Virus record (IMG/VR): IMGVR_UViG_3300017917_001342
Span: 373,669 to 437,668 of that record
From: a virus
Direction: 5' to 3' (one strand)
DNA length: 64,000 nucleotides
Shown: positions 1 through 46,131 of the stretch, piece after piece
Numbering within the stretch: position 1 is the stretch's first letter
How the letters are laid out: every line of letters begins with the position of its first letter
The notes under the pieces: model-generated
What the model was told of the DNA's origin: nothing
The model's database searches: none
The model's input: the letters and a program-made list of their open reading frames with translations, nothing else
Made by a program: the position numbers and the translations under genes

Positions 1-156
1 TCCTTTATACCAAGTGGTTTCTTGGTTGTTTATTGCTATGCCGCCTGCAACAAATATCACATCGTCTTTATTAATTACAGAAGTTGCACATCTACACAAA
101 CCATGTACTGCACTTTCTTTTACTTCGGTATTTTTATTAATCCAAAAATAATGCAT
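1..156 (-). CDS. Unknown protein, 5' part only (gene runs off the window start)
   Basis: An open frame of 52 codons starts at ATG 156 and continues past base 1 without a stop. The start lies inside the end of the oxygenase gene at 137-907 (20-base overlap), the same tight coupling seen throughout this operon. The visible peptide begins MHYFWINKNTEV and contains VIFVAGGIAINN, a hydrophobic strand followed by small residues. I do not recognise the family. It shows that the enzyme operon continues beyond this window. Confidence 0.55.
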   Translation of the reverse strand, partial: MHYFWINKNTEVKESAVHGLCRCATSVINKDDVIFVAGGIAINNQETTWYKG

Positions 157-907
157 TAAATTTAGGATCCTCAAAGTTTGCTAATACTAGTATGTGGTAA
201 CGTGCATCGCCTGCTGTATTATTTACAGCATGGTTATGTTGTGTGTTTATTATCCATGCTTCATTAAAACCATAATGTTGAACATGCAATGTTTTATCCA
301 TGTATACTAACATAGATGCATGTTCAGATGTAACCAATGGTATATGTAAGTATGCATGTGTGTATTTAGGTTCGTAATAATTGTGGCTGTGCCAATTGAT
401 TCGCTGATTGTTATCAACTCTAGATATCAATACCCTATCGCACATTTCCCATGTAACAAACTGTTTTACAATGCTTACAATGTATGGAACTTTGTGATAC
501 AGGTCAGTTTTAACAAGATGTTCCGGTGGCACTCGCCCGTCTACAATTAAATCTTGTTTACCAATGATTTCCATATAGTCTAGCGTTTCGCCAAAACCAA
601 AATTACTGTCTTCTACAAAATTTCTTAAAAATTTTGCACACCAATAGGTACTAATACCAGCGCCTCTACGTCCTTTTACATCGTTGTTGTATCCATGCCA
701 CGGTGTTGATTCAACAATGCTTAATTCTTGTTTAATGAGATCTTGATTAAAATCTAAGTTGTCTGCAACTTTATAGTGCGGCACGTAGAGTAATTTTTTA
801 GCAACAGGTGATTCTGCACGGTCTGATGCACAGCGTGGACTACATGTGGGATCAAATGCAGGTGCATTTTCAATGTCTAACAAGTTTTTGTGCAAATTCA
901 AGGACAC
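137..907 (-). CDS. Aspartyl/asparaginyl beta-hydroxylase-like Fe(II)/2-oxoglutarate oxygenase
   Basis: 256 residues. The C-terminal half has a double-stranded beta-helix oxygenase pattern: WHSH at 172-175 (candidate iron ligands), a strand-rich stretch, then HNHAVNN around 224-230 and DARYHIL at 234-240, the His...Arg pair expected to bind iron and 2-oxoglutarate in the Asp/Asn hydroxylase family. The N-terminal 130 residues are unassigned. The start is GTG 907, supported by GGAG seven bases upstream; it overlaps the preceding oxygenase gene by 38 bases. Substrate unknown; family hydroxylates peptide or small-molecule carbons. Part of the minus-strand tailoring operon. Confident of the fold, not of the substrate. 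Confidence 0.7.
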   Translation of the reverse strand: MSLNLHKNLLDIENAPAFDPTCSPRCASDRAESPVAKKLLYVPHYKVADNLDFNQDLIKQELSIVESTPWHGYNNDVKGRRGAGISTYWCAKFLRNFVEDSNFGFGETLDYMEIIGKQDLIVDGRVPPEHLVKTDLYHKVPYIVSIVKQFVTWEMCDRVLISRVDNNQRINWHSHNYYEPKYTHAYLHIPLVTSEHASMLVYMDKTLHVQHYGFNEAWIINTQHNHAVNNTAGDARYHILVLANFEDPKFNALFLD

Positions 908-1439
908 CGAGTTTCTCCAAATAAGGGTTTTCTAAATTAGGTAATTCATTCGCCGAATTAAAAATCATGTGTATTCTTGGGCTATGATCACCATTGACAA
1001 AATTGTGCAGTTCATGTGTATTTGTCCAATACACTTTACCCAATGGCATTCTAGCAATGTATGCTAAATCTGGAAATACCATGTATGCCATAAGAGAATT
1101 TGTTACAACTGGTATATGATATCTAGTATACAGATCAACATGTGTGCTGTAACATGCACGTTTGTCTAACCACATAAATCTGGCACTAGCTACAGGAAAA
1201 TCCAAACTGGTTAGTATTTCTTTTATGTAAGTGCCTTCTAATTCTGGATGGAAGTTAACACATTGTTCTTCTCGTCTGGCTTTACCGTAGTGATCTACGT
1301 CACTGTGCCAAGATACATCAGTCGAATACTGCAAACATATTTGTGTGTTTTCCCATCCAACACGTTCTATGATATCCAATGATTCTGCTACAAATCTATC
1401 CGAATCAATGTCGGCAATTTCTTTGAATATGTTATTCAT
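870..1439 (-). CDS. Small Asp/Asn hydroxylase-like oxygenase, tandem copy 1
   Basis: 189 residues. Iron-ligand candidates are His100 and Asp102 (STHVD) and His145 in THELHNF, with Arg155 in SPRIHMIF as the likely 2-oxoglutarate anchor; this order fits the cupin-type Asp/Asn beta-hydroxylases. It is clearly paralogous to the next gene (1436-1984): both share CY(S/T)THVD, YTRYHIPV and YWTNTHELHNFVNG. Its ATG overlaps the neighbour's stop by four bases, implying translational coupling. A tandem duplication that kept the whole iron/cofactor site suggests two related hydroxylation steps or two substrates. Substrate unknown. Confidence 0.75.
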   Translation of the reverse strand: MNNIFKEIADIDSDRFVAESLDIIERVGWENTQICLQYSTDVSWHSDVDHYGKARREEQCVNFHPELEGTYIKEILTSLDFPVASARFMWLDKRACYSTHVDLYTRYHIPVVTNSLMAYMVFPDLAYIARMPLGKVYWTNTHELHNFVNGDHSPRIHMIFNSANELPNLENPYLEKLGVLEFAQKLVRH

Positions 1440-1984
1440 TTGTACAGATACTCGTTGTCTAAATTCTTAGGTTCGTTTGCGTTGTTGAAAACAATGTGTA
1501 TTCGATCTTCGAATGTACCATTGACAAAGTTATGAAGTTCATGTGTATTTGTCCAATACAGCTTACCCGGATACATTCGTGCAGTTATGTCTTTATCAGG
1601 AAAAATCATAAATGTTTGTAATGGTTTAGTAATTACAGGTATGTGATATCTAGTGTAGTAGTCCACATGCGTTGTGTAGCAGGTTTTTGCTGGCAGCTTC
1701 ATTATTCTTGTATGTGCCACTGGAAAATCCAAGCTTTCCAAATATGTTTTAATGTATGTACCATCTAATGCAGAATGCCATTTAGTGTAGGTATATTCTT
1801 CGGAACTTATATGATGTTCCATGTTTGGTATACCGTCGTGCCAACTGTTTTCTGTACTGTACTGCAATGCAATTTGATTGCTGTGATATGAAGTGAGTTT
1901 TAATATTTCACGCAGTTCACCTAAAATTAAATCAACATCAACATCTGATCGCAACTCTTTAAACACATTTTCATTGCTATTCAT
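1436..1984 (-). CDS. Small Asp/Asn hydroxylase-like oxygenase, tandem copy 2
   Basis: 182 residues, paralogue of the 870-1439 protein. Candidate iron ligands are His106/Asp108 (TTHVD) and His151 (THELHNF), followed by Arg161 (EDRIHIV). The regions around the active site are nearly identical to copy 1, while the first 90 residues have diverged more. ATGA overlaps join it to the genes on both sides (1436-1439 and 1981-1984). Predicted cytoplasmic Fe(II)/2-oxoglutarate-dependent hydroxylase; target unknown. Confidence 0.75.
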   Translation of the reverse strand: MNSNENVFKELRSDVDVDLILGELREILKLTSYHSNQIALQYSTENSWHDGIPNMEHHISSEEYTYTKWHSALDGTYIKTYLESLDFPVAHTRIMKLPAKTCYTTHVDYYTRYHIPVITKPLQTFMIFPDKDITARMYPGKLYWTNTHELHNFVNGTFEDRIHIVFNNANEPKNLDNEYLYK

Positions 1985-2616
1985 AATCTACCAAATCCCC
2001 AAAATCTTTCTTCACACCACCAACATTTTCCACAATGCCCCATTCCCGGGTCATCCCATTCATGGTTGATCCATTCACAACTTCTTGTAACAGTAAACAG
2101 GTCATCCATTAGGTTGTACTGTTTATATATAGCACATAAATCTTGTTTATCTAAATTTGTCCACGGCATATACCAATTGCCTTGTTTAGGTTGCCGTATT
2201 ACTGTTGGATCGCGTTCGTGGTTTTCTAATGTTTCTAATGTGAATTTTTCAATTACATCAAATGGAGGATTTTTTGTTACACCGGTGTAAACCGTTGATA
2301 CAATGTTGTTATCAAGAAATTCCATTGGTACTAGAAATAAATTCTGTTTTGTTTGCGCAGTGACATATGAAATGTGATGCGTTAAATTGTAATTCTTAGT
2401 TAACTCAGTGCATCTACTAATAACATTAACAGCAGCATGTGTATTTCTAATCAGTTTTTCTTGACTGGCTACAGAAAAAACATGCAGTGGTTGATCCGAA
2501 TATTTTAACAGAAAATACAGCATCAGTGCGCTGTCTGCACCTCCACTCACACACACTCCCAGGTTACCAGGATATACGTTAAATTCCACATTGTTTGTTA
2601 TAGAATATGTTTTCAT
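1981..2616 (-). CDS. QueC-like PP-loop ATPase with C-terminal zinc motif (copy A)
   Basis: 211 residues. The ATP-pyrophosphatase PP-loop is SGGADS at 24-29. The C-terminus has Cys180, Cys195, Cys198 and Cys201 (HCGKCWWCEERF), the C...CGxCxxCxxR zinc arrangement of QueC, the 7-cyano-7-deazaguanine synthase. QueC adenylates a carboxylate and converts it to an amide and then a nitrile. It is paralogous to the 4290-5012 protein with the same cysteine spacing. No folE, queD, queE or DNA-inserting transglycosylase is visible nearby, so the substrate may not be a deazaguanine. I infer an ATP-dependent carboxylate-activating enzyme acting with the neighbouring radical SAM protein (ATGA overlaps on both sides). 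Confidence 0.75.
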   Translation of the reverse strand: MKTYSITNNVEFNVYPGNLGVCVSGGADSALMLYFLLKYSDQPLHVFSVASQEKLIRNTHAAVNVISRCTELTKNYNLTHHISYVTAQTKQNLFLVPMEFLDNNIVSTVYTGVTKNPPFDVIEKFTLETLENHERDPTVIRQPKQGNWYMPWTNLDKQDLCAIYKQYNLMDDLFTVTRSCEWINHEWDDPGMGHCGKCWWCEERFWGFGRL

Positions 2617-3752
2617 TTCGGTTTATATTTTGGTATTTTACTGTCAGCACTGCTAACACATGCATTAGTGATGCAAGGCATCGGAGTATCAAATAGTTTA
2701 AATCCAGTTTCTATGTACCCTAGAGGTTTATCGCAACAACTGTAGCTGCGTTTAATTGCACCATCTGGTTCTCTTATTATAATGCTTCTGTAACCACTTT
2801 CACAATTCCAGCCGTTAAACTGATTGAAATTAAAGGCATTAAATCGTTCAGCCTGATCCATATACCATTTTTTACCTGTGTTGTCTTCAAATTCAACTTG
2901 CATTAATTGTGGTACTGATGCATCGTCACCGTTTGATACACTCATAGTCTGCATACTGATTTTTGGCTTAGGCCTATTGACTTTGCTTTTGACCGCAGTG
3001 AAATCTCGTTGCGGCATACCATTGTGTAATACTGCTAACTGCTCTGTAGTATACCCTTCCACTATCCGGCTTGCTGTAGGGTCGCTTTGAGCCTTCAGCG
3101 TGACGTTTATTCCTCGACTCAAGAAGTATTCTGTTTCTTTATACAGTACATCAAACCATTCTGGTACCATAACAGTGTTGATGGTTACCTGAACATCGTT
3201 TTCTTGTAGATAAACCAGTTTGTCTGCAAACTTCTCAGTATGCCCAACTAAGTCACCTTGTTTTATACCTTGTTCGCGATGCCAACTGGCAGTGACACTT
3301 ACTCTGTGCAAATTGCGTGTTACATCTACATATTTTTCGAACCAATTGAGACTTTGGCTTATGTTACTGGTCATATGCACACTTTGATAATTGCAATTAT
3401 CAGTATCGGTTGCGTAGTGATTGAGAAGTTTCAAGTAGTCAGGATATACTGTAGGTTCGCCGCCGCTAAAACTAAAATGAAAACTGTTAAAACCACGTTC
3501 TCTACTTTGTCGTTTTATTTCATCAATTGTCATACGATTTAATTCATATGGACGATAATCTTTTACATCACTTCGTGCATATGGCCAACAGTAACTACAG
3601 CGATAGTTGCAATAACGCCCTAACAGCCAGCTTACACAAAATATATCTCTATAGAGAAGGGTTCGTTGACCGAATTTAACTATGTCATTAAACGGTATTT
3701 TAGTGAAATCGTATTGACTCCATTCTACCTTATTCTTTATACCATCTGTCAT
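2613..3752 (-). CDS. Radical SAM enzyme with C-terminal auxiliary cysteines
   Basis: 379 residues. The [4Fe-4S] cluster motif CxxxCxxC is at Cys48, Cys52, Cys55 (CNYRCSYC), followed by the SAM-contacting FSGGEPT at 95-101. The C-terminal 80 residues contain further cysteines (GWNCESG, YSCCDK, PCITNACV), suggesting a SPASM/twitch-like auxiliary iron-sulfur cluster typical of enzymes that modify peptides or carry out difficult oxidations. Start ATG 3752 overlaps the SDR gene by 23 bases; the end overlaps the PP-loop gene by four. Reaction unknown. Confidence 0.8.
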   Translation of the reverse strand: MTDGIKNKVEWSQYDFTKIPFNDIVKFGQRTLLYRDIFCVSWLLGRYCNYRCSYCWPYARSDVKDYRPYELNRMTIDEIKRQSRERGFNSFHFSFSGGEPTVYPDYLKLLNHYATDTDNCNYQSVHMTSNISQSLNWFEKYVDVTRNLHRVSVTASWHREQGIKQGDLVGHTEKFADKLVYLQENDVQVTINTVMVPEWFDVLYKETEYFLSRGINVTLKAQSDPTASRIVEGYTTEQLAVLHNGMPQRDFTAVKSKVNRPKPKISMQTMSVSNGDDASVPQLMQVEFEDNTGKKWYMDQAERFNAFNFNQFNGWNCESGYRSIIIREPDGAIKRSYSCCDKPLGYIETGFKLFDTPMPCITNACVSSADSKIPKYKPK

Positions 3753-4293
3753 CTTGCATCGGATCTATACTAATTTCATTAATGTTAATATGCTTCGGTT
3801 GATCTATTAACCATTTAATATAATGTGCAGCAGTGATAATGTCTAGACATTTACGATCCGGATGCTTAGATTGATTGTTTGTCAGTGTACCAAAACTGAC
3901 ATAACTGATTTTAGGATAAGTTGACCAAACACTGCCTATTGATAGTGTATTACAATAATCCCTAAGTGCTTTCTTTTCTGCATTGTATAACCAAGGCTTG
4001 CTGTTGTTAACTTTATCAGTTGTGCTACCAATACAGATAATGTGCATCGTTGGATTTTTTTCAACTGCAACTTTAAATACTGCATCGAGTAATACTGTTT
4101 GATTGAATTTCCATAGTGCTGCACAATTTACAAACACATCATGCCCTGCTGCAATCAATGCAGCACGTTCTTGGTCGTCCTTTTTAGCTAGATCAAATCC
4201 AGATGACCTACTTAAAAATGTTGCATTGGGAAATATACTTGCTATTTCTTTTGCCAAGCCGTAGTTGGGATTACCTGTAATACATACTCTCAT
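3730..4293 (-). CDS. Short-chain dehydrogenase/reductase (SDR) family oxidoreductase
   Basis: 187 residues, short for the family (usually about 250). The N-terminal TG at residues 6-7 with a following glycine fits a Rossmann NAD(P) site; VNCAAL at 55-60 matches the SDR NAG-type segment; Ser90 and Tyr103-x3-Lys107 (YNAEK) give the catalytic Ser/Tyr/Lys set in correct spacing. It probably oxidises or reduces a carbonyl/alcohol on the pathway intermediate. Coupled by a four-base overlap to the upstream PP-loop gene. Confidence 0.72.
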   Translation of the reverse strand: MRVCITGNPNYGLAKEIASIFPNATFLSRSSGFDLAKKDDQERAALIAAGHDVFVNCAALWKFNQTVLLDAVFKVAVEKNPTMHIICIGSTTDKVNNSKPWLYNAEKKALRDYCNTLSIGSVWSTYPKISYVSFGTLTNNQSKHPDRKCLDIITAAHYIKWLIDQPKHININEISIDPMQDDRWYKE

Positions 4294-5012
4294 AATTTAC
4301 CAAATGCATATAAACGTTCTAAGCAAAAGTAACAGACACCGCAATGTGTCGGTGTGTCGGTATACATTTGCATATGATTTTCGCAAGACCAAGTAATGGG
4401 ATAAAGGTCCTCAAGTAAGTTGTAATAGTTGTACAGTTTAAAAACTGTTCGTTTATCAGAACGTGCAAAAGGCATGTAATAGGTTACATTGCCTAATTTT
4501 CCCACAGTTGAATACAACGGATAAGTTCTATTAACATCTCTTTCTGACAGCCATTTTTTGCATTCAACTTTATCATATTTGAAGTTGTCAGATTCAACCA
4601 TTGCTTGAAGTTCATCTATCGGACAATTAATTGACAACCCGGTATAATTAGAATCAATTGAATGATTTTCTATAACCTCATGTTCCAAGTTATCTTGACC
4701 TATTGTGTATTCTTGTGAATTTGATTCAACTGAATTGTCGATGCGATGATTTAAATTACACGATTCGTAATGTTTAGCCGGATATTTTCCAGTTAATTTT
4801 CCAACTAACTCAATAACACCTTTGGCTTTGTTTACAGAATGTGGTCGTAATGCAGTATTCAATGTATAAGGGTATATGTTAACATCTGTGTAGTCTTTAA
4901 AAAAATTGCACAATGCATAATAAATGATACTGCTGTCTGGTCCCCCAGATAATCTTACTGCGATGTTTTTATCCAAAGGATCTACAGATATAACGTCGTC
5001 AATCATCGTCAT
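4290..5012 (-). CDS. QueC-like PP-loop ATPase with C-terminal zinc motif (copy B)
   Basis: 240 residues. PP-loop SGGPDS at 22-27. The C-terminus TWSCE...THCGVCYFCLERL supplies Cys210, Cys224, Cys227 and Cys230, very close to the QueC zinc site and to copy A at 1981-2616. An insert of about 60 residues (roughly 85-145) is absent from copy A. Start could be ATG 5012 or ATG 5006; both overlap the end of the cobalamin radical SAM gene. Predicted ATP-dependent activation of a carboxylate or related group; whether it forms amide, nitrile or a conjugate to a protein cannot be read from sequence. Confidence 0.75.
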   Translation of the reverse strand: MTMIDDVISVDPLDKNIAVRLSGGPDSSIIYYALCNFFKDYTDVNIYPYTLNTALRPHSVNKAKGVIELVGKLTGKYPAKHYESCNLNHRIDNSVESNSQEYTIGQDNLEHEVIENHSIDSNYTGLSINCPIDELQAMVESDNFKYDKVECKKWLSERDVNRTYPLYSTVGKLGNVTYYMPFARSDKRTVFKLYNYYNLLEDLYPITWSCENHMQMYTDTPTHCGVCYFCLERLYAFGKL

Positions 5013-6492
5013 TCTTTACACCTAATACGTTATCATACCTGCGTAATTCTTTATCTATTATCCAACCAGAATAATCTGTGTTATTAAGTTTCATAATGAA
5101 TTCGTTTATTTCTTTAAATCGTCTTGCTCTGACTTGTAGAGTATTACCTTTATAATCCCAGTCAAAAATGTCAGTATATGAAGTAAGTTCATCTTTAACC
5201 AATTCCCAAATAGGATGATCTTCTGACAACATCAACGTATTACCGAAACTCAAATACAATAATTTATTGCCCCATTCGTTGGTGTTATGAGCATATCCAG
5301 TATCATACAAGTGCTGTATGGTGTTTAATGTATGTTGATGGTCTTCTTCAGTTTCAGTTGGATAACCTACTATCATCAACAGTGTGTGTTGTATTTTGTA
5401 TTTTTGTAACATTTCAAAACACCACCACATGTCTTCATCAGTGAATTTTTTACCCATGTGATAACGAACATGTTGACTAAATGATTCTATACCTATATCT
5501 AATTCAACACACCCGCTGTCTACCATTAATTGATAATCAGCTTCCGGTGACTGTGCTTTTGATCTAACTATCCATTGACTAGACCATTTAAAATCCGGAT
5601 CTGTTTTTCTATATTCTTTTAATTCGTGCAGTAATTCTCTAAATGCTTTCATACTGCCGTTGATTAAACTGTCTGTAAATTTAAAGAAGTGTCTATTATA
5701 CTTTTTACGTATTGCTATAATTTCTTCTGCTATATGCTTGCCAGATCTAAATCTATACTCTGGCCATATTTGATAAACATTGCAGAATGTGCAGCGTTTT
5801 ACACAACCACGACTACCAGTGATATACACAGGTCGATCATAGTCCATAATATGGTATTCATCCCAATTGATATCATCGTAATTTGGTATTTTAACAGAAT
5901 TTAAATCCAATACTTGAACAGGTGTAAGAGTATCAATACCTTTGTATGTAGTATTACCCTTTAGCAATTCAATAATTGCCTGTTCACCGTCACCACAGAT
6001 ATAATGGTCCATAAGACCAATTTCTTTAAACTTTTGAATGCCCCATTCTATTTGTGCACCGCCCCACACAATTTTAGTGTGCGGCAAATATTGTCTAATC
6101 AGCTGACTAAGTTTTACTGCAACTGATTGGCTGTATATTGATAGAATACTCAATCCTATCCATTTTGGATTCTTACGTTTAAAGAACCCTATCCATTCTA
6201 GAAAAACAGATTCGTTTTCTTTGTAAAATTCTTGAAATTCTCTGTTTAGTTCGAGAGAATCATTTTCTATTTCGTTGTGATGAGTTCTAAACAATGCATC
6301 ATTATTGAAAAAATAATGTTCGTGTTTATTGATCTTTTTTAGTGCATTAAAAAGCTTTATATTTAAATCTACAACCTCACATGTAAAACCTTCATCCATT
6401 AAATGAGATTTTAACAATGCAGGCCCAACAGTCGGTGCATCTGGATTTATTTTAGGTATTATACAGATAATAATATCTAGTTGATTATCCAT
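4999..6492 (-). CDS. Cobalamin-binding-type radical SAM enzyme
   Basis: 497 residues in three parts. Residues 5-180 resemble a B12-binding Rossmann domain (GPALLKSHL, WIGLSILSIYSQS, IVWGGAQIEW, ICGDGE), followed by the radical SAM cluster motif at Cys230, Cys234, Cys237 (GCVKRCTFC), and a C-terminal part resembling BchE/P-methylase-type radical SAM proteins (DIGIES, VGYPTET). Family members methylate unactivated carbon or phosphorus, or rearrange rings, using SAM and cobalamin. The DxHxxG cobalamin motif is not seen, as in many radical SAM members. It overlaps the neighbours at both ends (14 and 8 bases). If active, it needs host cobalamin. Confidence 0.78.
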   Translation of the reverse strand: MDNQLDIIICIIPKINPDAPTVGPALLKSHLMDEGFTCEVVDLNIKLFNALKKINKHEHYFFNNDALFRTHHNEIENDSLELNREFQEFYKENESVFLEWIGFFKRKNPKWIGLSILSIYSQSVAVKLSQLIRQYLPHTKIVWGGAQIEWGIQKFKEIGLMDHYICGDGEQAIIELLKGNTTYKGIDTLTPVQVLDLNSVKIPNYDDINWDEYHIMDYDRPVYITGSRGCVKRCTFCNVYQIWPEYRFRSGKHIAEEIIAIRKKYNRHFFKFTDSLINGSMKAFRELLHELKEYRKTDPDFKWSSQWIVRSKAQSPEADYQLMVDSGCVELDIGIESFSQHVRYHMGKKFTDEDMWWCFEMLQKYKIQHTLLMIVGYPTETEEDHQHTLNTIQHLYDTGYAHNTNEWGNKLLYLSFGNTLMLSEDHPIWELVKDELTSYTDIFDWDYKGNTLQVRARRFKEINEFIMKLNNTDYSGWIIDKELRRYDNVLGVKNDDD

Positions 6493-7216
6493 TAATTAAA
6501 TTCCTGTCTACTAATAGATCTTCAACTGTACCTTCAAAGTTTATATGCAAACCAATTTTCCATTTTCCAACTAGCTTACCAGTTGAATGCAGATTATTAC
6601 TGTTGAACAATATGAGATTTCCGGGTTTAAACTCGTATGCTACACCAGTTAAACCCTTAAAATATGAGTGTTTATGATTATAATACTCTAAATAATTTGT
6701 GTAAAAATCCAAATCTATATCATCCGTTGTTTTATCATATACTCGCGGATCATTGAATGGTATTAGATTTGTTTTCTTGTTAAAATCAAAATCATAGTTT
6801 GCAATATTATCTGCTCTGTCCCCGTACCATGTTTGTCCAAACCCATTGTCTACCCACTGATCAAACACTACAAAATGCTGTGTAGCCTGCGGCTCATGCA
6901 GATATATAGGTATCAAGCAGTTGATTAGTTGATATGGTTCTGCAGAATCAACATGTGTCGTATAGAGATTGGAATGTTTATAGATGTTACCACCTTGTCC
7001 TTTGTTACACACAAAGTATTTTGAAAGATATGGTTCTAGTACATCTCTTAGATGCGTCCAAGGCGCATTGATTTTTACCACATCTGGATTATTCGGTTTT
7101 TTAACATGTAATTCTGGATGTGTATCAAAAAAGTCTTTTATATAACTGCATACTTCAAGTGGTATGACATTTTCATACGCTAAATGACGCACTGTCATTT
7201 CATTCTCCATTAACAT
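6485..7216 (-). CDS. Fe(II)/2-oxoglutarate-dependent oxygenase-like protein
   Basis: 243 residues. His88-x-Asp90 (TTHVDS) and a distal His210 (NNLHSTGK) form the expected two-His-one-carboxylate iron triad of dioxygenases, within strands FKPGNLILFNS. No clear Arg follows the distal His; Lys220 (GKWKIGLH) might take its place. Unlike the small tandem oxygenases upstream, it has a 100-residue insert between the two halves of the site. Start may be ATG 7216 or ATG 7210; only five bases separate it from the preceding radical SAM gene. Substrate unknown. Confidence 0.65.
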   Translation of the reverse strand: MLMENEMTVRHLAYENVIPLEVCSYIKDFFDTHPELHVKKPNNPDVVKINAPWTHLRDVLEPYLSKYFVCNKGQGGNIYKHSNLYTTHVDSAEPYQLINCLIPIYLHEPQATQHFVVFDQWVDNGFGQTWYGDRADNIANYDFDFNKKTNLIPFNDPRVYDKTTDDIDLDFYTNYLEYYNHKHSYFKGLTGVAYEFKPGNLILFNSNNLHSTGKLVGKWKIGLHINFEGTVEDLLVDRNLING

Positions 7217-7221
7217 ATATT

Positions 7222-8367
7222 TTAATTATTCCAAGCTTTTAAAAAATTGCACAGTTCTAAATTGTAATCTTCTAATCTAGTATTATAATACCCATCCAGT
7301 TTTTTAGTGTAATATAAAAAATCTGACCAATGTTTTTCATTGTAGCTGTTTACATTCAAAAATGTAGATATAAGTCTATGTGCAGTTTCATTGTGTTTGT
7401 TTTTATCTAAGACCCATTGCACATAATCTTCTGGTGCATACAACAGTGATAGATGATAAGGATACCTAACAAAATCAACAGACATATGATATCCATGTTG
7501 TTCCATTAATACGTTTACTGTATTAGCAAGTGTGTTTGCATTTAACAGTGATACCACAGTGTGGAATGATGTCTGTACATTTTGAAAAATAGTTTCGTAC
7601 ATTTTAGTGTTGTTAAAAGTGTCTATATAAGAACTACCGTAGCGTTGATAATCATTAGATAGATCAAATGCATCTAGACTCACGTGTATGTCTAGCATTT
7701 TAAATTTATTGAGTTTTTCTATGACTGCATATGATGGTATAACTGTGCCATTGGTTGCAATTTCTATAGTTATCTGTGTTGGATCGGAGCGTTCTATTAG
7801 ATAGTCAATGAACTTTACAAAGTTGGGAGTCATAAAAGGTTCGCCGCCTAAAATTTTAACAAGTTCTAAATTGGATAGATCAGTGTTGTTAAATTTGCGA
7901 AAATTAGGTTCCAACTTTTTAAAAACTTCTTCACCTAGAAACTCGTCTCTGTTCATCAATCGAGTGCTAAATTTACTGTCGCACATTTTACATTGTAAAT
8001 TACAGATATTGTCTATAGACATTTCAATGTATCGCAGTTTTTCAAACTGTGTAGTGCAATTGTTTTTATCTACGTGAGAAAATCTACCATTGATATATGT
8101 TCTAAGAGACGTTGCTGTACCGTCACCTTCTTGATCATAACATTTAGTACATCCAGGTGATTTTATACCCATTAACATATTCTGCCTTAAGGCAACCATG
8201 TTGGGAGTTTCCATTACAGCTAACCCCTGTTGTTCTAACTGGTCGAGTGTAATGTCTATGCGTGTTTCATCCTTTGGGTTTTGAAATCTACAACAGGGTT
8301 TTAAGCTGTTATCTGGTCGTACACATTGATGTATCCACGGCAATACGCACCATGTATCATTGTTCAT
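7222..8367 (-). CDS. Twitch-domain radical SAM protein (1)
   Basis: 381 residues. An N-terminal cysteine block (Cys7 in CVLPW, Cys15, Cys25-Cys26, then Cys73 and Cys76 in CTKC) precedes the radical SAM cluster motif Cys122-x3-Cys126-x2-Cys129 (CNLQCKMC) and LGGEPF at 173-178. Having the auxiliary-cluster cysteines in front of the SAM barrel is the 'twitch' arrangement found in a family common in marine phages. It shares this design with the 12509-13855 gene but is not a close copy. Function unproven; auxiliary clusters usually bind substrate or pass electrons. Confidence 0.8.
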   Translation of the reverse strand: MNNDTWCVLPWIHQCVRPDNSLKPCCRFQNPKDETRIDITLDQLEQQGLAVMETPNMVALRQNMLMGIKSPGCTKCYDQEGDGTATSLRTYINGRFSHVDKNNCTTQFEKLRYIEMSIDNICNLQCKMCDSKFSTRLMNRDEFLGEEVFKKLEPNFRKFNNTDLSNLELVKILGGEPFMTPNFVKFIDYLIERSDPTQITIEIATNGTVIPSYAVIEKLNKFKMLDIHVSLDAFDLSNDYQRYGSSYIDTFNNTKMYETIFQNVQTSFHTVVSLLNANTLANTVNVLMEQHGYHMSVDFVRYPYHLSLLYAPEDYVQWVLDKNKHNETAHRLISTFLNVNSYNEKHWSDFLYYTKKLDGYYNTRLEDYNLELCNFLKAWNN

Positions 8368-9497
8368 TTTGGTATCTCATCTCTATCAATATCAATAGAA
8401 CCGAATCCAATAATAGACTTTTTGAATTCTCTAGACACATCTGGTAGTTTGTTGTCTGTTAAAAACCAAGACGAACTGTGCCACCTGGCAGTGTCAAACA
8501 CCATCATTGTGCCTAGCTGCCATTCGTATACGCTGTGTGTTTTTAAACAAGCATATTCTTTGTAATACTGTGTGTTTGGTGGATTGTATTGCATTACATC
8601 AGAATCATACCACCAATCACGTTCATCGTCTGGTCTATATTTGAAAACTTCGTCGTTGTCCATGTATCGCATTTCACCTTTGCGATAAATCAACTTACGT
8701 GGCACAGTGCTGACACGGTCATAGTTTACAGTATATGGCTGATGACACGACCACATTAACGGTATAATAACACCCATAACAATATGGCAATCATGTGTTA
8801 TCAAATTATTATCTACTACTCGCCATGTGTTTGGTAATGAAACATAATCGGTGTGCAACCCCGCAGGCTCACCAGATTTAAAATATTCAAAATTCCAATC
8901 TAACTTAACGTTAAGGTAATTGTTTATATACGTAGAGAGATAGGTTTTAGTATCAGCCGGTGTAGACACAAATCTATTGTGTCCCTTAGATCCACTTATT
9001 TTAACAGTTTGTGATTCTAACAAACTGTTAGATTCTAAATTATATTTGTAAATGTCCAAATCAATTTTATTACTGCCATAGCGTATTACGTTGTTTTTTA
9101 GTGCCACGCACTGTTTAACTTCATCTAATTTTATAAAATTGAGATTTTTTACAGCTTGTTTGATTACAGATGCATAAATGGTATGACGTATATTCCTAGC
9201 AATTAACACACCAGAATCCGACAGATACTGTCTAATGTGTTTATACAATGCATGCCAGTTGACATGTTCTTCTGTGACACCAATTGTTATAATATCATAT
9301 TTGAATTCGCTGTTAAATGACAATGCCGTTGGTGCATAAATCTCACTGTAGGCCCATTCTGGAAATTGTGTTTTTGTAAAATCTATTAGCTGTCCATCTG
9401 CTTCACCTATTTCCAAAATACGTCCATGTTGGCCAAATGTAGACATTTGTTGTGCCACTAATTGCATTTCTTCAGGATATATTAGACTTTTGCCCAT
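8364..9497 (-). CDS. Methyltransferase-like / Fe(II)-2OG oxygenase fusion
   Basis: 377 residues with two domains. Residues 1-145 are a class I methyltransferase-like Rossmann domain (RILEIGEADG at 26-35) paralogous to the separate methyltransferase at 10420-10956. Residues about 175-377 look like an Fe(II)/2-oxoglutarate oxygenase: His215-x-Asp217 (GLHTDY) and distal His340 (ARWHSSSW). The glycine-rich SAM loop is poor (one full GxxG only), so methyl transfer may be weak or lost. Overlaps both neighbours (four bases with the downstream radical SAM gene, one base with the PLP gene). The fusion suggests that the two reactions act on one intermediate. Confidence 0.68.
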   Translation of the reverse strand: MGKSLIYPEEMQLVAQQMSTFGQHGRILEIGEADGQLIDFTKTQFPEWAYSEIYAPTALSFNSEFKYDIITIGVTEEHVNWHALYKHIRQYLSDSGVLIARNIRHTIYASVIKQAVKNLNFIKLDEVKQCVALKNNVIRYGSNKIDLDIYKYNLESNSLLESQTVKISGSKGHNRFVSTPADTKTYLSTYINNYLNVKLDWNFEYFKSGEPAGLHTDYVSLPNTWRVVDNNLITHDCHIVMGVIIPLMWSCHQPYTVNYDRVSTVPRKLIYRKGEMRYMDNDEVFKYRPDDERDWWYDSDVMQYNPPNTQYYKEYACLKTHSVYEWQLGTMMVFDTARWHSSSWFLTDNKLPDVSREFKKSIIGFGSIDIDRDEIPK

Positions 9498-10423
9498 TAT
9501 TTTCGTTCTTCTTTTTCTATAGAATTAAGACCAGCGTCGGTACCTCTTGCATCAAACACGCCTTCAATGAGATATCGTAAAGGAGTGCGTATGCCGTATT
9601 GCACAGTATTATGACCTTGAGTCTTAAAGCCGACATGTATACTGTTGCCTTCTGTTAATCCAAAATCATTGCAGACTTTGCTGTACAACTCACTATAGTT
9701 AGACCACCAATAATCTACACCAAAATGATTCATCATTTCTACACCTATCCACATGTCACTGACATTGCAATAGTCAAAATCATTCATAATAGCTATTGGA
9801 CCGTTTACTCGTTCCCTGGTATATCTGATACCAATACGCTGACTACCCATTCCCAGTGCTTTGCTGAGACTAACACTAACACTTGCGATAGCAGGATGAG
9901 ACACATCAAATTCAAAATTTCTGCATTGTCCAAACCATGCACCATCAATATGAACTGGAATATTTCTATGCTCACAGTGATCTAAAAGTAGATCGAAATC
10001 ATCCAAATGTCCTGTTGTAATGCAGCTTGGATAGCTTGCAACAAATACATCACCTGGTACTAATTCAGTGAAATGTTCTATCTGCTTAACGGTAAAATCT
10101 GTTAAGCGTCTATGATACTTGTATTCGCCTTGCATAGTGGCTATACGACCGTTATGCAGCATGTGTAGTTCATCTAGTTGATGCGTAGTACCTAATATTG
10201 CGTCACGGCGTGTAAACGTGTCTAATCCGCTATAATGAACCAGTTTGTGTGCATTGATCCACTTGTCAATACTAGCAATGAAATGTCTGGTGTATTCGTG
10301 TGGATCTTTTGGATATGTAGACATATCAAGACCGGCCCGAAATTTAGTAAACTTGCTAAGATACATCGGGCGCTGTCTCTTAGTACCTAGCATTTCAAAT
10401 GTAATGTCGTCATAAGTCATCAT
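9497..10423 (-). CDS. PLP-dependent fold-type I enzyme (aminotransferase/decarboxylase-like)
   Basis: 308 residues. The PLP-site signature is present: HIDGAW with Asp160 (pairs with the pyridine nitrogen) and SLSKALG with Lys188 (predicted Schiff base), at the usual spacing of about 28 residues. The protein is shorter than the usual 380-450 residues, mainly at the C-terminal small domain. It could be an aminotransferase, decarboxylase or a sulfur-handling enzyme; specificity cannot be assigned. Two adjacent ATGs (10423 and 10420) start it; it is coupled to the methyltransferase upstream by four bases. Confidence 0.72.
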   Translation of the reverse strand: MMTYDDITFEMLGTKRQRPMYLSKFTKFRAGLDMSTYPKDPHEYTRHFIASIDKWINAHKLVHYSGLDTFTRRDAILGTTHQLDELHMLHNGRIATMQGEYKYHRRLTDFTVKQIEHFTELVPGDVFVASYPSCITTGHLDDFDLLLDHCEHRNIPVHIDGAWFGQCRNFEFDVSHPAIASVSVSLSKALGMGSQRIGIRYTRERVNGPIAIMNDFDYCNVSDMWIGVEMMNHFGVDYWWSNYSELYSKVCNDFGLTEGNSIHVGFKTQGHNTVQYGIRTPLRYLIEGVFDARGTDAGLNSIEKEERK

Positions 10424-10956
10424 TTGTTTCCATATGCATAGGACCCATTAACAGATTCTATACTTTTAAAATTTAATGCATTCACAGCTTGATTTATATA
10501 TTCACCGTAGATTTTGTGTTTTAAATTTCTAGCGATAATAACACCGTCATTTTTTAACATAGTTGCTGCATGTTGATATACTGTAACCCAATTGATTTTT
10601 TTACTAACAAGTCCCATACTGATAACATCAAATTTTTGATCAGTGTTCCAATTTTCAAAATATGCTTCTTGTGCAATTGCAAATGGACAATTTTTTGTAA
10701 ACATATCCTTAGTAATCACATCGCTTAGGTTATTAGGAGCAAAATAATCTGCGGCCCAATCTATTTGTAATCTGACTTTTTCCTGTTCCCAGGGATCAAC
10801 TGCAACGTATGTCCATAGTGGGAATCGTTTATGTAAAAAATCAAACAGTCTGCCAGCAGCCGCACCAACTTCTAATATAGATCCTACTTTGCCTTTCGAC
10901 TCCATTTGTCTAGCAACTAATTCCATTTCAGCTACGGAGATCCAACCATCTACCAT
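10420..10956 (-). CDS. Class I SAM-dependent methyltransferase-like protein
   Basis: 178 residues from ATG 10956 (GGA lies a few bases upstream; a TTG at 10974 would add six residues). ILEVGAAAGRLFDF at 27-40 is the SAM-binding motif I, and VISMGL and VIIARN mark later strands. It aligns end to end with the N-terminal domain of the fusion protein at 8364-9497 (shared E-M-x-LVA-x-QM opening, LE(V/I)G, LI/LFDF, LIARN). It has the fuller glycine loop of the two, so it is the better candidate for an active methyltransferase. Target unknown. Confidence 0.7.
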   Translation of the reverse strand: MVDGWISVAEMELVARQMESKGKVGSILEVGAAAGRLFDFLHKRFPLWTYVAVDPWEQEKVRLQIDWAADYFAPNNLSDVITKDMFTKNCPFAIAQEAYFENWNTDQKFDVISMGLVSKKINWVTVYQHAATMLKNDGVIIARNLKHKIYGEYINQAVNALNFKSIESVNGSYAYGNK

Positions 10957-10957
10957 G

Positions 10958-11854
10958 TTATATCCACTTTTCAACTATTGCATCTAACTTACACGGGCAT
11001 GCAGAATAATCACACACAATTGGATCAGTTGGTAATGTATATTGACCTGTTAAAATATTACCTAAACTGCCACCGACATTTTTAGTACAACGCTTTATAT
11101 TGCCGTTTGGTTCAACCATTAAACGCTTAATACCAGCAGTACAAGTATATCCCTTAAATTGATGAAGTCCTTGATCAAGTACATTCATGAACTTTATCTT
11201 TTTACCATCGAAATGCAAATTCCTAGGTATTTCCCAATCTATACCAAACGGTTTCATTTTATTATGATGATTAGTTTGTATCCATTGTCGTTGTTCATCT
11301 GTATATTCAAAATAAGAAGTGCCGTTAATACTGGTTCGAGTAAATTTAGGGGTACACTCTATATCAAGAGTTGTTAGTCTATCATAGAGTTTTTTAGCAC
11401 GTTCAAAATTGTCAGGTACTACCATAAGTGGTACACTTAAACTGGCTTTGTGTTGCATTATATCAGCTACTGCATAAAAATGATCGTCGTCTGCAAATTC
11501 ATGATGCCAGCTTAAAAACACAAATGCTCGCTGTGTCTTAAATTGAGTCCAATAGTTTATTGTGCGAGATGCGTTGGTAGCGTATTCTACAAAAACATTA
11601 TCGTCACTAATTGTATCCACAAATTCTTGGAACCTAGGCCATACTGTAGGTTCGCCGCCCAAAACTTCTATATACAAATAACGATTTCGTTGTTTAAGTT
11701 CAGTTATTAATTTAATATAAGGAGTCCAATCGTCTGGCCATCTGTAAGATCCCGATCTATGATAATCGTTGCAATATGAACAACTGTAATTACATACGTT
11801 ATGTATGAACAGTGTTAAAACACAGCAATTTAAATTTTCATTTGTGATATGCAT
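10958..11854 (-). CDS. Radical SAM enzyme with SPASM-like C-terminus
   Basis: 298 residues. CxxxCxxC cluster motif at Cys21, Cys25, Cys28 (CNYSCSYC), LGGEPT at 65-70, and C-terminal cysteines (YTCTAG, KRCTKN, VCDYSACPC) after a NGNIKRC segment, typical of SPASM-type auxiliary cluster domains. It resembles the 2613-3752 radical SAM protein in the core (CNYxCSYC, GGEPTV(Y/W)P, SWHHE/SWHRE), suggesting an ancient paralogue pair. One base separates it from the methyltransferase start downstream. Reaction unknown. Confidence 0.8.
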   Translation of the reverse strand: MHITNENLNCCVLTLFIHNVCNYSCSYCNDYHRSGSYRWPDDWTPYIKLITELKQRNRYLYIEVLGGEPTVWPRFQEFVDTISDDNVFVEYATNASRTINYWTQFKTQRAFVFLSWHHEFADDDHFYAVADIMQHKASLSVPLMVVPDNFERAKKLYDRLTTLDIECTPKFTRTSINGTSYFEYTDEQRQWIQTNHHNKMKPFGIDWEIPRNLHFDGKKIKFMNVLDQGLHQFKGYTCTAGIKRLMVEPNGNIKRCTKNVGGSLGNILTGQYTLPTDPIVCDYSACPCKLDAIVEKWI

Positions 11855-11856
11855 GT

Positions 11857-12519
11857 TTATTTTATATGAACAAGATCGTTGTCAACCCACATAGATTTAT
11901 GTCTATACATTGCCGTGTTGATTTTAACATCGTAGTTGTGGGGTATGGTTTCAATAGGGTATCCGATTCCTAGAGCAGTTACAACTCTATCATCAATTAA
12001 TTCTTTGTCGTATTCTTCTTTTAATAATCTGTACAATATAGATCTAAAATTGTCATCAAAACATGTACAAAACCCAGTACGATACCCAAGTTGATTAGCT
12101 GCTAATGCCAGCATGCCCATGTGTATCCCAACTGACGTATGCATATCTTCTGATATAAATCTGTACGAAGTTTTTTCTCTGTTTTCGTTATTAAAATTTG
12201 TAGCAACTGTTTCTTCATAATGCTGGGATTTGTATTCACTGTACGGTAATGCAATTACCAATAACGGTGCAGACATTTGTGCATTATGCGGAGAATGATA
12301 CCCGTGATCTCTCGACGACATGTACATATCATGTATCAGTTCTCTATTTTCAATAAACAGTGTTTTATGCCAAACCACACCTTGCTTCCTAGGTGCAAAT
12401 TCTATCAGTGTTTTAAATAACTCAACATCATCAGGTTTAACCGACTTATCGTCAAAATTACGTTGACATAATCTTGCATAATTAATAGAAGATACTAATA
12501 GATTTTTATCAATTATCAT
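11857..12519 (-). CDS. Nitroreductase-like FMN oxidoreductase
   Basis: 220 residues from ATG 12519 (GTG 12531 would add four). An N-terminal RLCQRNFDD (basic/aromatic FMN-contact region), a central SVGIHMGMLALAANQLGYRTG helix-turn segment and the late ALGIGYP motif are characteristic of the nitroreductase fold. Such enzymes reduce or dehydrogenate substrates, for example oxidising azolines to azoles in peptide natural products. The start overlaps the end of the upstream radical SAM gene by 11 bases. The exact redox role in this operon is not known. Confidence 0.7.
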   Translation of the reverse strand: MIIDKNLLVSSINYARLCQRNFDDKSVKPDDVELFKTLIEFAPRKQGVVWHKTLFIENRELIHDMYMSSRDHGYHSPHNAQMSAPLLVIALPYSEYKSQHYEETVATNFNNENREKTSYRFISEDMHTSVGIHMGMLALAANQLGYRTGFCTCFDDNFRSILYRLLKEEYDKELIDDRVVTALGIGYPIETIPHNYDVKINTAMYRHKSMWVDNDLVHIK

Positions 12520-13855
12520 TAAACAATTCACGATATTGCGGTATTATATCTAATACATTTTGGTTTCTAATTTTGTCTAGATCTTTAGTAATTTTAACAA
12601 ATTGCGGTAACCATTCAGCAGAATAATCTTCGCTTAACATAAACTTTTCTACACTATCTAAGTGTTTGACAAAGTGCTTTTTAACATGTGTCGAAAAGTT
12701 AGTTGCAACTATCCAGGCTTTATATTGCTTGTAATGTTCTACTACCTGCTGCTTGATGTCAGCTGGTAATACTTTAATGTTATAGTATTTTGGGCTATGA
12801 CACATATGATAAGAAACAATAGGTCTATATGATTCAACTGGATTGAATTTTAACAGATTGCTTTCTGTTAATTTCCATTTCATGAATTCAGGAAAATGGA
12901 AAACATTAAACGGTGTTATAGTAAATGCAAACCAGCACTTGAGATTAATATCGGTTCTTGCATCTATCTTTTTTAGATTTTCATAGACATGAGTCCATTT
13001 TGCCGGAGCCCGCTGATAATCAAATATTTCGTTGCAGGCATCTATACTTGCACCTATGCGTATTTCTTTAAAATGCTTCCACAGGTCTAATATTTTATCT
13101 GTAACGTTAGTGAGATTTGTGTTGTATTCAATTTGAATCTCACTTGCTCTACCGTTGGCTACCAGTCGTTCTAACGATTCTATATGCTCATCAATTATAA
13201 GAGGCTCACCACCTACAATGTAAAGCTTCTTGGCATTTTTAGTATGCTGCTCAAAATTACTCCAATACATGTTGGAATTCTTAAACCAATCATATTGATC
13301 AGTTGTCCATCGACCTTTTTCATTTTTTACTAGTTGTACTCGTTCATGAGTGTCTTTGTACGATGTAGATCCCCATAGCTTTACAAAGTCATCATACCAT
13401 TGATGACTATCTGTAGGACCACACATTCTACATTTCAAATTGCAGAAGTTACCGTAGCGTATATCAAAATATTCAATATCTTGTTTAGCAGTATCTATAG
13501 TACCGTCAGCTTCAGTAATAGATGCAGCATACTCTTTTGTTATCTCCCAATCGTTAAGTTCCATCTGTCGTCGAGATAATACGCCATTTTTTTCTTCTTG
13601 TCTGCAACGTTCGCATTCAGAATGCCACTCGTTGTTAAGCATAGTTGATCTGACGTCTTTTAGTAATGCAGCATTTCTAGCATCGTTGAAATCATCTTTG
13701 CTTGCATTGTAAGCAGTGCCATCTGATTTACGAATTATACCTTTATTAGGACTGTATGAGTTTGCATTACAACAAACTCTAAGATCGCCATTGTTACGTA
13801 TGTTTATGCTGTTCCATGGTAATGGACAAAATGTGCTTTTAGATTCTTCAGACAC
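12509..13855 (-). CDS. Twitch-domain radical SAM protein (2), first gene of the operon
   Basis: 448 residues. N-terminal CPLPW (Cys10), Cys28-Cys29 and Cys81/Cys84 (CERC) precede the cluster motif Cys138-x3-Cys142-x2-Cys145 (CNLKCRMC) and VGGEPL at 214-219. Same domain order as the 7222-8367 protein. The start is GTG 13855 with AAGG about nine bases upstream; no in-frame ATG lies near. It is the first gene after the terminator that ends gp18 transcription, so it probably sits just behind the operon promoter. Function unknown; auxiliary cluster cysteines are intact. Confidence 0.8.
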   Translation of the reverse strand: MSEESKSTFCPLPWNSINIRNNGDLRVCCNANSYSPNKGIIRKSDGTAYNASKDDFNDARNAALLKDVRSTMLNNEWHSECERCRQEEKNGVLSRRQMELNDWEITKEYAASITEADGTIDTAKQDIEYFDIRYGNFCNLKCRMCGPTDSHQWYDDFVKLWGSTSYKDTHERVQLVKNEKGRWTTDQYDWFKNSNMYWSNFEQHTKNAKKLYIVGGEPLIIDEHIESLERLVANGRASEIQIEYNTNLTNVTDKILDLWKHFKEIRIGASIDACNEIFDYQRAPAKWTHVYENLKKIDARTDINLKCWFAFTITPFNVFHFPEFMKWKLTESNLLKFNPVESYRPIVSYHMCHSPKYYNIKVLPADIKQQVVEHYKQYKAWIVATNFSTHVKKHFVKHLDSVEKFMLSEDYSAEWLPQFVKITKDLDKIRNQNVLDIIPQYRELFNDN

Positions 13856-13928: not shown

Positions 13929-13929
13929 T

Positions 13930-13956
13930 AAAAAACCGGGACAAGCCCGGTTTTTT
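13930..13956. terminator. Bidirectional intrinsic terminator
   Basis: AAAAAACCGGG (13930-13940), loop ACAAG, CCCGGTTTTTT (13946-13956). The A and T tracts on either side make it work on both strands. It lies just past the gp18 stop codon and separates the sheath gene from the enzyme operon. Confidence 0.9.
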
Positions 13957-13960
13957 AATC

Positions 13961-45069: not shown

Positions 45070-46089
45070 TTAAATGCTCTGATAGATTTCAATTAGCTGT
45101 TGCTTATTGATAGTATTGCTTTCGATACTTTTAAGGTGGCTGATCACAATAGTATCAACACTTTCAAAGTTAATATCATCTGCCGATATTTCACCTATTG
45201 CATCAGTTTTAGATACCTGTAGGTTTATTTCTCTAGCATTGAATTCCTGCTCAAACAGTTCTTTTAAGAAATTTGCTTCTTCGTAAGTAACGTCTACATC
45301 TACTGCAATACGTGCAAAGGTTTTGTCGTCTAAAAACTGTTCGGGATCTTCTAACAAGTGACTCATGTTTATTGTTCTATATTTAGGTGCGTCAGGCCAT
45401 GACATAAACTTGGGGTCGTCACCGGGCGACCAAATCATTATACCGCGTTCGTCATCCCAGGCATCTGCATAATTGTGCGGGAAACAGTTACCAGTGTACC
45501 ATATTTTTCCGCGGTTTTGTCTTTTATGGAAATGCCCGCTAAACACTTGTTTTTGATTTACAAAGTGGTTTTCGTTAAGCTGACCGTGGTCTGGCATTTC
45601 AACCATTGCGTTCATTTTGAAATGCGGTAATTCGAAATGTCCAAACATGTAAGGTGCTTTGACTTTTTGTACATGTTTCCAGTCATCGCCTACCATCCAG
45701 GGCACAAAACTAACACCGTCTACTTCGGTTATAGATTCAATGAGATGAATGTTTGAAAATTCTTTTATGTAGGGAATACTGTGTATTTCGTTTTTATCAC
45801 GATAAAATTGATCGTGGTTACCTAATATGAACCAAGTGTGATCAAAATAACTATTCAGTAATTTGAGACCACTAACAGAATAGTTCAACGTGCTAACGTT
45901 GATCGCACTGCGAACATGATGCCAATCCCCGCCAAAGATGCAATTTTTAATATTGCGTTCTTCTGCTTGTTCAATCATCCATTTGATAAAACGTTCGCAA
46001 CTGTCGTTGTGATCTCGACTGTTGTTGCGCATGCCGTAGTGAATGTCAGTAAAGACTATTGTATTTGAGAAATCTATATCTTTTGTCAT
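45070..46089 (-). CDS. 47: Recombination endonuclease subunit gp47 (SbcD/Mre11-like)
   Basis: 339 residues. Metallophosphatase motifs in order: FTDIHYG (Asp15, His17), FGGDWHH, LGNHDQFY and GHFHKR. Forms the nuclease partner of gp46. ATG 46089 (MTKDID) is chosen; an upstream TTG at 46119 would add a Cys-rich leader not expected in this family. Confidence 0.94.
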   Translation of the reverse strand: MTKDIDFSNTIVFTDIHYGMRNNSRDHNDSCERFIKWMIEQAEERNIKNCIFGGDWHHVRSAINVSTLNYSVSGLKLLNSYFDHTWFILGNHDQFYRDKNEIHSIPYIKEFSNIHLIESITEVDGVSFVPWMVGDDWKHVQKVKAPYMFGHFELPHFKMNAMVEMPDHGQLNENHFVNQKQVFSGHFHKRQNRGKIWYTGNCFPHNYADAWDDERGIMIWSPGDDPKFMSWPDAPKYRTINMSHLLEDPEQFLDDKTFARIAVDVDVTYEEANFLKELFEQEFNAREINLQVSKTDAIGEISADDINFESVDTIVISHLKSIESNTINKQQLIEIYQSI

Positions 46090-46131
46090 ACAACAGCATA
46101 CGGTACAGCATGCTTGCAATCAACCATGTAG

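Follow-up and report, generated by a model that had tools for sequence, protein, structure and literature searches.

We analysed a window of 64,000 nucleotides, positions 373669-437668 of the 518,643-bp virus record IMGVR_UViG_3300017917_001342 (hereafter the parent record, labelled G000), and in particular an operon of tailoring enzymes at its beginning; positions are those of the window unless the parent record is named. Sixteen complete minus-strand open reading frames (ORFs), each of at least 180 amino acids, tile positions 137-13855, and one more is open at position 1. Neighbouring genes overlap by 1-38 nt or are separated by gaps of 2-5 nt, and six junctions are exact 4-nt overlaps. When the segment was shuffled 100 times with a first-order Markov model, no minus-strand ORF of at least 180 amino acids arose, against 16 in the real sequence, which rules out chance ORFs as the origin of these genes.

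An earlier note on this DNA had counted at least 16 complete, coupled minus-strand genes, which agrees with our count. It had also described a seventeen-gene operon. The coupling stands, but gene 17 encodes a SET-domain protein outside the enzyme classes listed in the note, and the operon runs past the edge of the window through ten further genes (g17-g26, down to position 367340 of the parent record), for a total of 26 (locus L005). These ten, joined throughout by short overlaps or one 3-nt gap, comprise the SET protein (g17), more 2-oxoglutarate (2OG) oxygenase-like genes, short-chain dehydrogenase/reductase (SDR)-like genes, two SGNH-like genes, and one gene without assigned function. Beyond g26 the operon meets a convergent plus-strand operon end-on, which reads as desaturase, epimerase, UDPG/GDP-mannose dehydrogenase, aminotransferase, oxygenase, thioredoxin-like protein, sugar-isomerase-like cupin, and GNAT acetyltransferase. 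The 26-gene operon is real, larger than first described, and kept by selection.

Genes of the operon

Five of the genes, all of which (g1-g17) lie on the minus strand of the window, encode radical S-adenosylmethionine (SAM) proteins with an intact CxxxCxxC motif, as had been claimed. Two are twitch proteins that match NF033640 above its 170-bit cutoff: g1 (12509-13855; N-terminal twitch, 367 bits), in which C138, C142, C145, and an N-terminal Cys are invariant across 14 homologues, and g7 (7222-8367; 246 bits), with CNLQCKMC at residue 122. In g3 (10958-11854; PF04055), C21, C25, and C28 together with the C-terminal auxiliary residues C238, C256, C281, C286, and C288 are invariant across 12 homologues. 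The B12-binding protein g9 (4999-6492) matches PF04055 (1e-17) and PF02310 (2.7e-9); its nearest NCBIfam models, PhpK and a C-methyltransferase of ribosomally synthesized and post-translationally modified peptides (RiPPs), are both far under cutoff. The core protein g12, or R3 (2613-3752; PF04055, 1.6e-12), has SPASM-like C-terminal cysteines, and C48, C52, C55, C317, C339, C360, and C365 are invariant in its homologue alignment. Profile searches against the PDB returned remote relatives only, SkfB and anSME being the nearest solved ones.

The two methyltransferases of the earlier note are likewise present, as g4 (10420-10974; TTG start; PF13489, 1.2e-6) and as the N-terminal domain of g6 (8364-9497; PF13489, weak), which ends in a 2OG-oxygenase-like domain with HTD at residue 215. 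Its one pyridoxal phosphate (PLP) enzyme is g5 (9497-10423). By its AlphaFold2 model (pLDDT 92.5), this is a compact fold-type-I PLP enzyme, nearest CobD and HisC (best Foldseek matches, E about 1e-8), and the PLP lysine K188 and D160 are invariant across 25 homologues. Other class assignments need qualification. The five 2OG-like proteins are present, but one of them lacks the acid ligand. The other four are the C terminus of g6; g8 (6485-7216), without a Pfam family although H88, D90, and H210 are invariant across 15 homologues; and the Asp/Asn-hydroxylase-like g14 (1436-1984; HVD at residue 106) and g15 (870-1439; HVD by reading), both weak matches below the curated score of the Asp/Asn beta-hydroxylase family PF05118. 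The fifth, g16 (137-907), reaches that score (2.8e-6) but has no HxD/E, reading WHSH instead of HxD, a loss shared by some Asp/Asn hydroxylase relatives. The single nitroreductase corresponds to a flavoprotein-like match under the Pfam gathering score (g2, 11857-12531; PF00881, E=0.0034; weak homologues among 24 proteins of relatives). The single SDR, g11 (3730-4293), is short and has the TGxxxxGLA and YxxxK motifs by reading, with a weak NCBIfam match and no Pfam match, so that its identity stands on motifs; homologues at 38-68% identity occur near g12 in relatives. The window holds the first 58 of the 159 amino acids of g17 (1-174), the remainder being at 373363-373668 of the parent record.

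Two PP-loop ATPases, as reported earlier, share the SGGxDS loop and a Cys4 zinc-type motif with the QueC family (QueC, QatC, Cap9; PF06508). In g10 (4290-5012), which is above the PF06508 cutoff, the loop and C210, C224, C227, and C230 (C-x13-C-x2-C-x2-C) are conserved across 23 homologues; g13 (1981-2616) has SGGADS and the Cys4 motif but only weak matches to PF01171, PF00733, and PF06508, the last under cutoff. The canonical QueC substrate motifs YxQxHxxE, VPxRN, and YPDC (PMC13329287) are absent from the consensus of the g10 alignment, and we therefore dropped g10 as a true QueC (preQ0 synthase). Since the ATP loop and Cys4 are kept and the preQ0 substrate motifs are not, both proteins likely carry out ATP-dependent activation of some carboxylate rather than preQ0 synthesis.

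Directly upstream on the same strand lies a tail sheath gene (13961-17995; phrog_10581, 2e-259), which is context and not a member of the pathway. Between it and g1 an inverted repeat with flanking A and T runs (13929-13957) is possibly a terminator; we found no sigma-70 consensus. Elsewhere in the window, positions 45070-46119 encode an SbcD-like nuclease subunit (phrog_100, 1.3e-68), ordinary in large T4-like phages.

Conservation and linkage in phages and bacteria

Scans of IMG/VR found 291 loci encoding homologues of g12 and 194 encoding homologues of g5, of which we fetched 80 each. Linkage was counted once per distinct sequence and only where the flank was long enough. Around g5, in loci fetched for g5 alone, g1 lies within 3 kb in 27 of 30 loci and g3 within 2 kb in 21 of 30; the fusion of methyltransferase and 2OG-like domains is present in 21 of 28. 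Two further radical SAM proteins, R1 and R2, which in the parent record are encoded outside the window, accompany g5 in 19 of 24 and (within 7 kb) 21 of 26 loci, and g12 lies within 9 kb in 16 of 24. Seen from g12, linkage is looser (R2 and g1 in 15 of 42 each) because g12 accompanies many different cassettes, and at least three radical SAM motif proteins occur in 40 of the 42 g12 loci longer than 20 kb.

The set is thus linked in relatives, whereas single, unlinked occurrence had been named as grounds for giving up the coupled pathway; nor did we see inactivating changes across homologues in the catalytic residues checked, and the cofactor sites are intact. Comparison with the nearest relative gives dN/dS ratios of 0.04-0.09 for the genes in which dS could be measured (it is saturated for g1, g5, g10, and g12). 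Gene order, catalytic residues, and dN/dS together indicate that function is maintained, and pseudogenes or decaying genes are ruled out by the invariant residues and these ratios. Linkage, residue conservation, and purifying selection therefore support a coupled, conserved, and functional tailoring pathway. In INPHARED we found no near DNA relatives and no record matching g12 or g5 at E 1e-5; tblastn of g12, g5, g16, and the glycosyltransferase described below gave no matches.

The parent genome as a whole, which looks T4-like (by eye, from its terminase and from gp32-like, UvsX-like, and clamp-loader-like proteins), is rich in the same chemistry. It has 24 matches to PF04055, nearly all within four islands, and a count of CxxxCxxC in proteins longer than 250 amino acids also gives 24, of which 22 are inside islands. 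The island at 444-458 kb carries, after a fibre-like gene, several glycosyltransferase-like genes, R1 (453176-454519), and R2 (454516-455922). The island at 83-102 kb carries a carbamoyltransferase, a UDPG/GDP-mannose dehydrogenase, and about 10 radical SAM genes, and a second UDP-sugar dehydrogenase lies, with an epimerase, the sugar-isomerase-like cupin, an aminotransferase, and a GNAT protein, in the operon converging on g26. The statement that nucleotide-sugar synthesis genes are lacking is consequently true inside the window but not beyond it, because the islands and the convergent operon hold such genes. The series of glycosyltransferase, methyltransferase, R1, R2, g1, g3, g5, and g6-g9, split in the parent record, is contiguous in several relatives.

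The glycosyltransferase-like family has a conserved acidic motif, and its model (AlphaFold2, pLDDT 92) has GT-A topology, with RmlT, TarP, ArnC, SunS, and GalNAc-transferases as best PDB matches (best E 3e-4, TM-score about 0.42). R1 in the parent record is fused at its N terminus to a homologue of a 74-amino-acid protein that precedes R1 as a separate gene in 21 phage loci; this protein has 80% mean column identity (L116:1816-2043 and 18 further distinct homologues) and no PHROG match. After R2, positions 455919-456413 of the parent record encode a small protein with apparent homologues in ten relative loci (e.g., L047:17375-17680 and L138:4474-4776), and a heme-oxygenase-like protein is encoded at 80058-80567, near the 83-102 kb island.

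A scan of genome contigs for g12 gave 23 loci, mostly in metagenome-assembled genomes (MAGs) of Bdellovibrionota, on contigs that in some cases span 300-900 kb. The Bdellovibrionota homologues of g12 are 55-65% identical, and in 14 of the 18 loci treated as Bdellovibrionota g12 has R1 (40% or more) and R2 (54% or more) next to it. One of the 18 (L193) has a record labelled merely "bacterium" and was counted because it groups with Bacteriovoracaceae in the tree. The flanks that were checked hold cellular genes, encoding UvrD helicase in L207 and seryl-tRNA synthetase in L195, and the loci with the triad hold homologues of the phage glycosyltransferases plus PF00535 glycosyltransferases. Since g12 occurs in 17 of 291 sampled Bdellovibrionota genomes, its distribution in the phylum is patchy.

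Bacterial sequences form deep and diverse branches of the g12 tree, in which the clade of the window groups with Bacteriovoracaceae/Halobacteriovoraceae (support 99/93). This suggests gene exchange between such bacteria and phages, in a direction that the arbitrary root leaves unset. We did not accept as cellular five MAG contigs with the labels Rickettsiales, Gammaproteobacteria, Chloroflexi, and Acidimicrobiaceae, since all of them fall among phage sequences in the tree. The GTDB "Rickettsiales" contig NZHE01000012.1 (L194) has the same length (46,940 bp) and match coordinates as the phage IMGVR_UViG_2823573081_000015 (L038), and therefore looks like a misbinned phage.

Virion genes and the closest known systems

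In five g12 loci (L045, L093, L102, L111, and L143) a homologue of the L-shaped tail-fibre-assembly family begins 54-58 bp after g12. Three of them, L093, L102, and L111, continue on the same strand with genes for fibre, neck, sheath stabiliser, and terminase. The operon in the window itself abuts the tail sheath gene, and the direct fibre junction is not seen there.

The nearest described setting is the hypervariable host-recognition cluster (HRC) of pelagimyophages, T4-like phages of SAR11, which combines tail fibres, glycosyltransferases, UDP-glucose dehydrogenase, and radical SAM cassettes and has been read as possibly modifying the host O-chain (PMC7029224). Its fibre and neck setting matches L093, L102, and L111, and GT-A-like genes and a UDPG dehydrogenase are likewise present in the related islands of the parent genome and contiguous with radical SAM genes in relatives. 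For the HRC, radical SAM genes were mentioned only as variable cassettes, with no core triad, 26-gene operon, or bacterial counterpart, and the genes of the parent record are spread across several islands. A further mention, in connection with Fe-S metabolism, is of a marine T4-like genome that holds 12 radical SAM genes (PMC5332604). The claim that the pathway is undescribed thus needs narrowing: Radical SAM cassettes had been noted in passing (PMC7029224; PMC5332604), but no pathway had been worked out. In a literature search that was not exhaustive we found no description of the triad, the 26-gene operon, or a Bdellovibrionota counterpart, and the R1-R2-g12 triad with its bacterial counterpart appears undescribed.

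Among cultured phages, Pelagibacter phage Mosig EXVC030M (MT647606, at 52-72 kb) has tailoring homologues beside tail fibres: an oxygenase (68% identity), an aminotransferase (43%), an acetyltransferase of the GNAT family (42%), and a carbamoyltransferase (30%). The 68% oxygenase is Asp/Asn-hydroxylase-like, and its counterpart lies in the operon converging on g26. Mosig also has a desaturase, nitroreductases, and a MoaA-like radical SAM protein near its tail fibres, but no homologue of g12, g5, or the glycosyltransferase by tblastn, and its radical SAM proteins are no more than distant relatives. Campylobacter phage CP220 (NC_027997, at 70-79 kb) carries five radical SAM genes, an amidinotransferase, and two proteins with the nucleotide-diphospho-sugar-transferase (GT-A) fold, the cluster being downstream of baseplate lysozyme and PAAR genes; identity is about 25% (R1-like only), and no PLP, 2OG, or PP-loop series is annotated. 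Vibrio phage K566 (L236) has, at 161-168 kb, four clustered radical SAM motif proteins about 22-27% identical to those of the parent record. Proteusin and other RiPP clusters of the polytheonamide type bring together radical SAM, B12 radical SAM, methyltransferase, and 2OG enzymes in the same way; here, in contrast, we found no precursor peptide, protease, or exporter, and sugar-pathway partners instead.

Nature of the product

We tentatively favour the reading, to which we give somewhat less than an even chance, that the operon is part of a phage pathway for a heavily tailored glycoconjugate, to be placed on virion fibres or on a surface. It is supported by gene content, coupling, conservation, purifying selection, the glycosyltransferase-rich bacterial loci, and fibre adjacency in some phages. 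Nucleotide-sugar enzymes and GT-A glycosyltransferases would supply and assemble a backbone, on which R1, R2, and g12, the three core radical SAM proteins, would perform conserved radical steps. A variable cassette would diversify the end groups by means of methyltransferases, the PLP enzyme, 2OG hydroxylases, nitroreductase, and carbamoyltransferase, together with QueC-like ATP-dependent acyl activation or amidation and SGNH acyl transfer or hydrolysis. The finished group would most likely be shown on the tail-fibre apparatus of the virion, where variation of the decoration would alter adsorption or hide the fibre. That the phage makes or decorates a complex product had been proposed before, with several products left in play; among those options a sugar-based surface decoration appears best supported, judging from the genes.

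Several points weigh against the glycoconjugate. In characterised cases, the substrates of SPASM/twitch and B12 radical SAM proteins, of SET proteins, and of Asp/Asn hydroxylases are mainly peptides or proteins. The fold matches of the glycosyltransferases are weak, and their role is predicted. The islands are scattered in the parent genome, and their joint action is suggested by the contiguity of the genes in relatives. A direct fibre junction occurs in only five of 98 distinct g12 loci, the other flanks being annotated unsystematically, so the fibre link is suggestive and not general. QueC-like proteins of defence systems act on proteins (PMC13329287). Finally, we infer the sugar-based product, every individual reaction, and the virion location from the genes.

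Much of the same enzymology would also suit a hypermodified ribosomal substrate, that is, a RiPP-like virion protein or peptide with cross-links, C-methyl groups, and hydroxylations and no glycan, an alternative that we regard as unlikely. The twitch and SPASM features (NF033640 in g1 and g7, the invariant C-terminal cysteines of g3 and g12), the nearest models of g9, the solved relatives SkfB and anSME, the SET protein, and the Asp/Asn-hydroxylase-like oxygenases all point that way, as might the highly conserved 74-amino-acid protein before R1. This protein, however, is conserved end to end, with no split into leader and variable core, which suggests an accessory domain and not a precursor. 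When the small ORFs of the fetched relatives were clustered, no precursor peptide divided into leader and variable core emerged; the remaining conserved short ORFs are antisense shadows or ordinary small phage proteins of the flanks. The gene set also includes sugar-pathway genes. A further alternative is modification during infection of a host envelope glycan, such as the O-chain of lipopolysaccharide, which would bar competing phages from adsorbing or spare progeny from being lost on debris. The pelagimyophage authors proposed this for the HRC glycosyltransferases (PMC7029224), and the bacterial core lies in chromosomal loci with glycosyltransferases, as expected of a cell-surface pathway. 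We nevertheless think it rather improbable: For a lytic phage, devoting about 20 kb to each operon and carrying some 22 radical SAM genes in clusters is a heavy cost, and the fibre/neck junction and nearby tail genes suggest late virion expression, although they are compatible with a host target.

A mix of radical SAM, PLP, 2OG, nitroreductase, and carbamoyltransferase enzymes resembles the tailoring part of natural-product clusters, and so infection might yield a diffusible product, such as an antibiotic, a signal, or a siderophore-like or cofactor-like small molecule. This seems very unlikely, as no exporter, resistance gene, nonribosomal peptide synthetase, polyketide synthase, or carrier protein was recognised among the operon genes, and the linkage to virion genes would be left unexplained. 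Least probable of all, and remote in our judgement, is the making of hypermodified DNA bases that shield the genome from restriction. DNA-modification pathways do include QueC-like proteins and 2OG enzymes, and the parent record also encodes QueE-like (469207-470079) and FolE-like (471378-472073) proteins. But the parent genome has no TGT/DpdA family match, its QueC-family matches are only the divergent g10 and g13, its thymidylate synthase looks like an ordinary dUMP enzyme (judged by eye), and PF00535 glycosyltransferases, not DNA-modification genes, adjoin the bacterial counterpart. The lack of a TGT family match also speaks against a 7-deazaguanine DNA pathway. As it stands, the 7-deazaguanine route of the parent record is incomplete, with the QueE-like and FolE-like proteins present and neither canonical QueC nor TGT/DpdA found.

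Returning to the glycoconjugate, we put forward a more specific and more doubtful proposal: R1, R2, and g12 might be a biosynthetic core that carries out three radical SAM reactions on a scaffold built by glycosyltransferases, giving a chemically undescribed surface conjugate common to Bdellovibrionota and to large aquatic phages, which would swap tailoring cassettes as a combinatorial surface code. The core triad may be chemically new. Its conservation in Bdellovibrionota, whose known members include predators, provides a cellular homologue, and with the cultured phages Mosig and CP220 the question can be tested in laboratory systems that already exist. If the surface reading is right, hundreds of uncultured phages would spend tens of kilobases on radical chemistry to make or vary a surface structure. 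Such pathways would add an unexplored layer to phage-host recognition and offer new enzyme chemistry in abundance.

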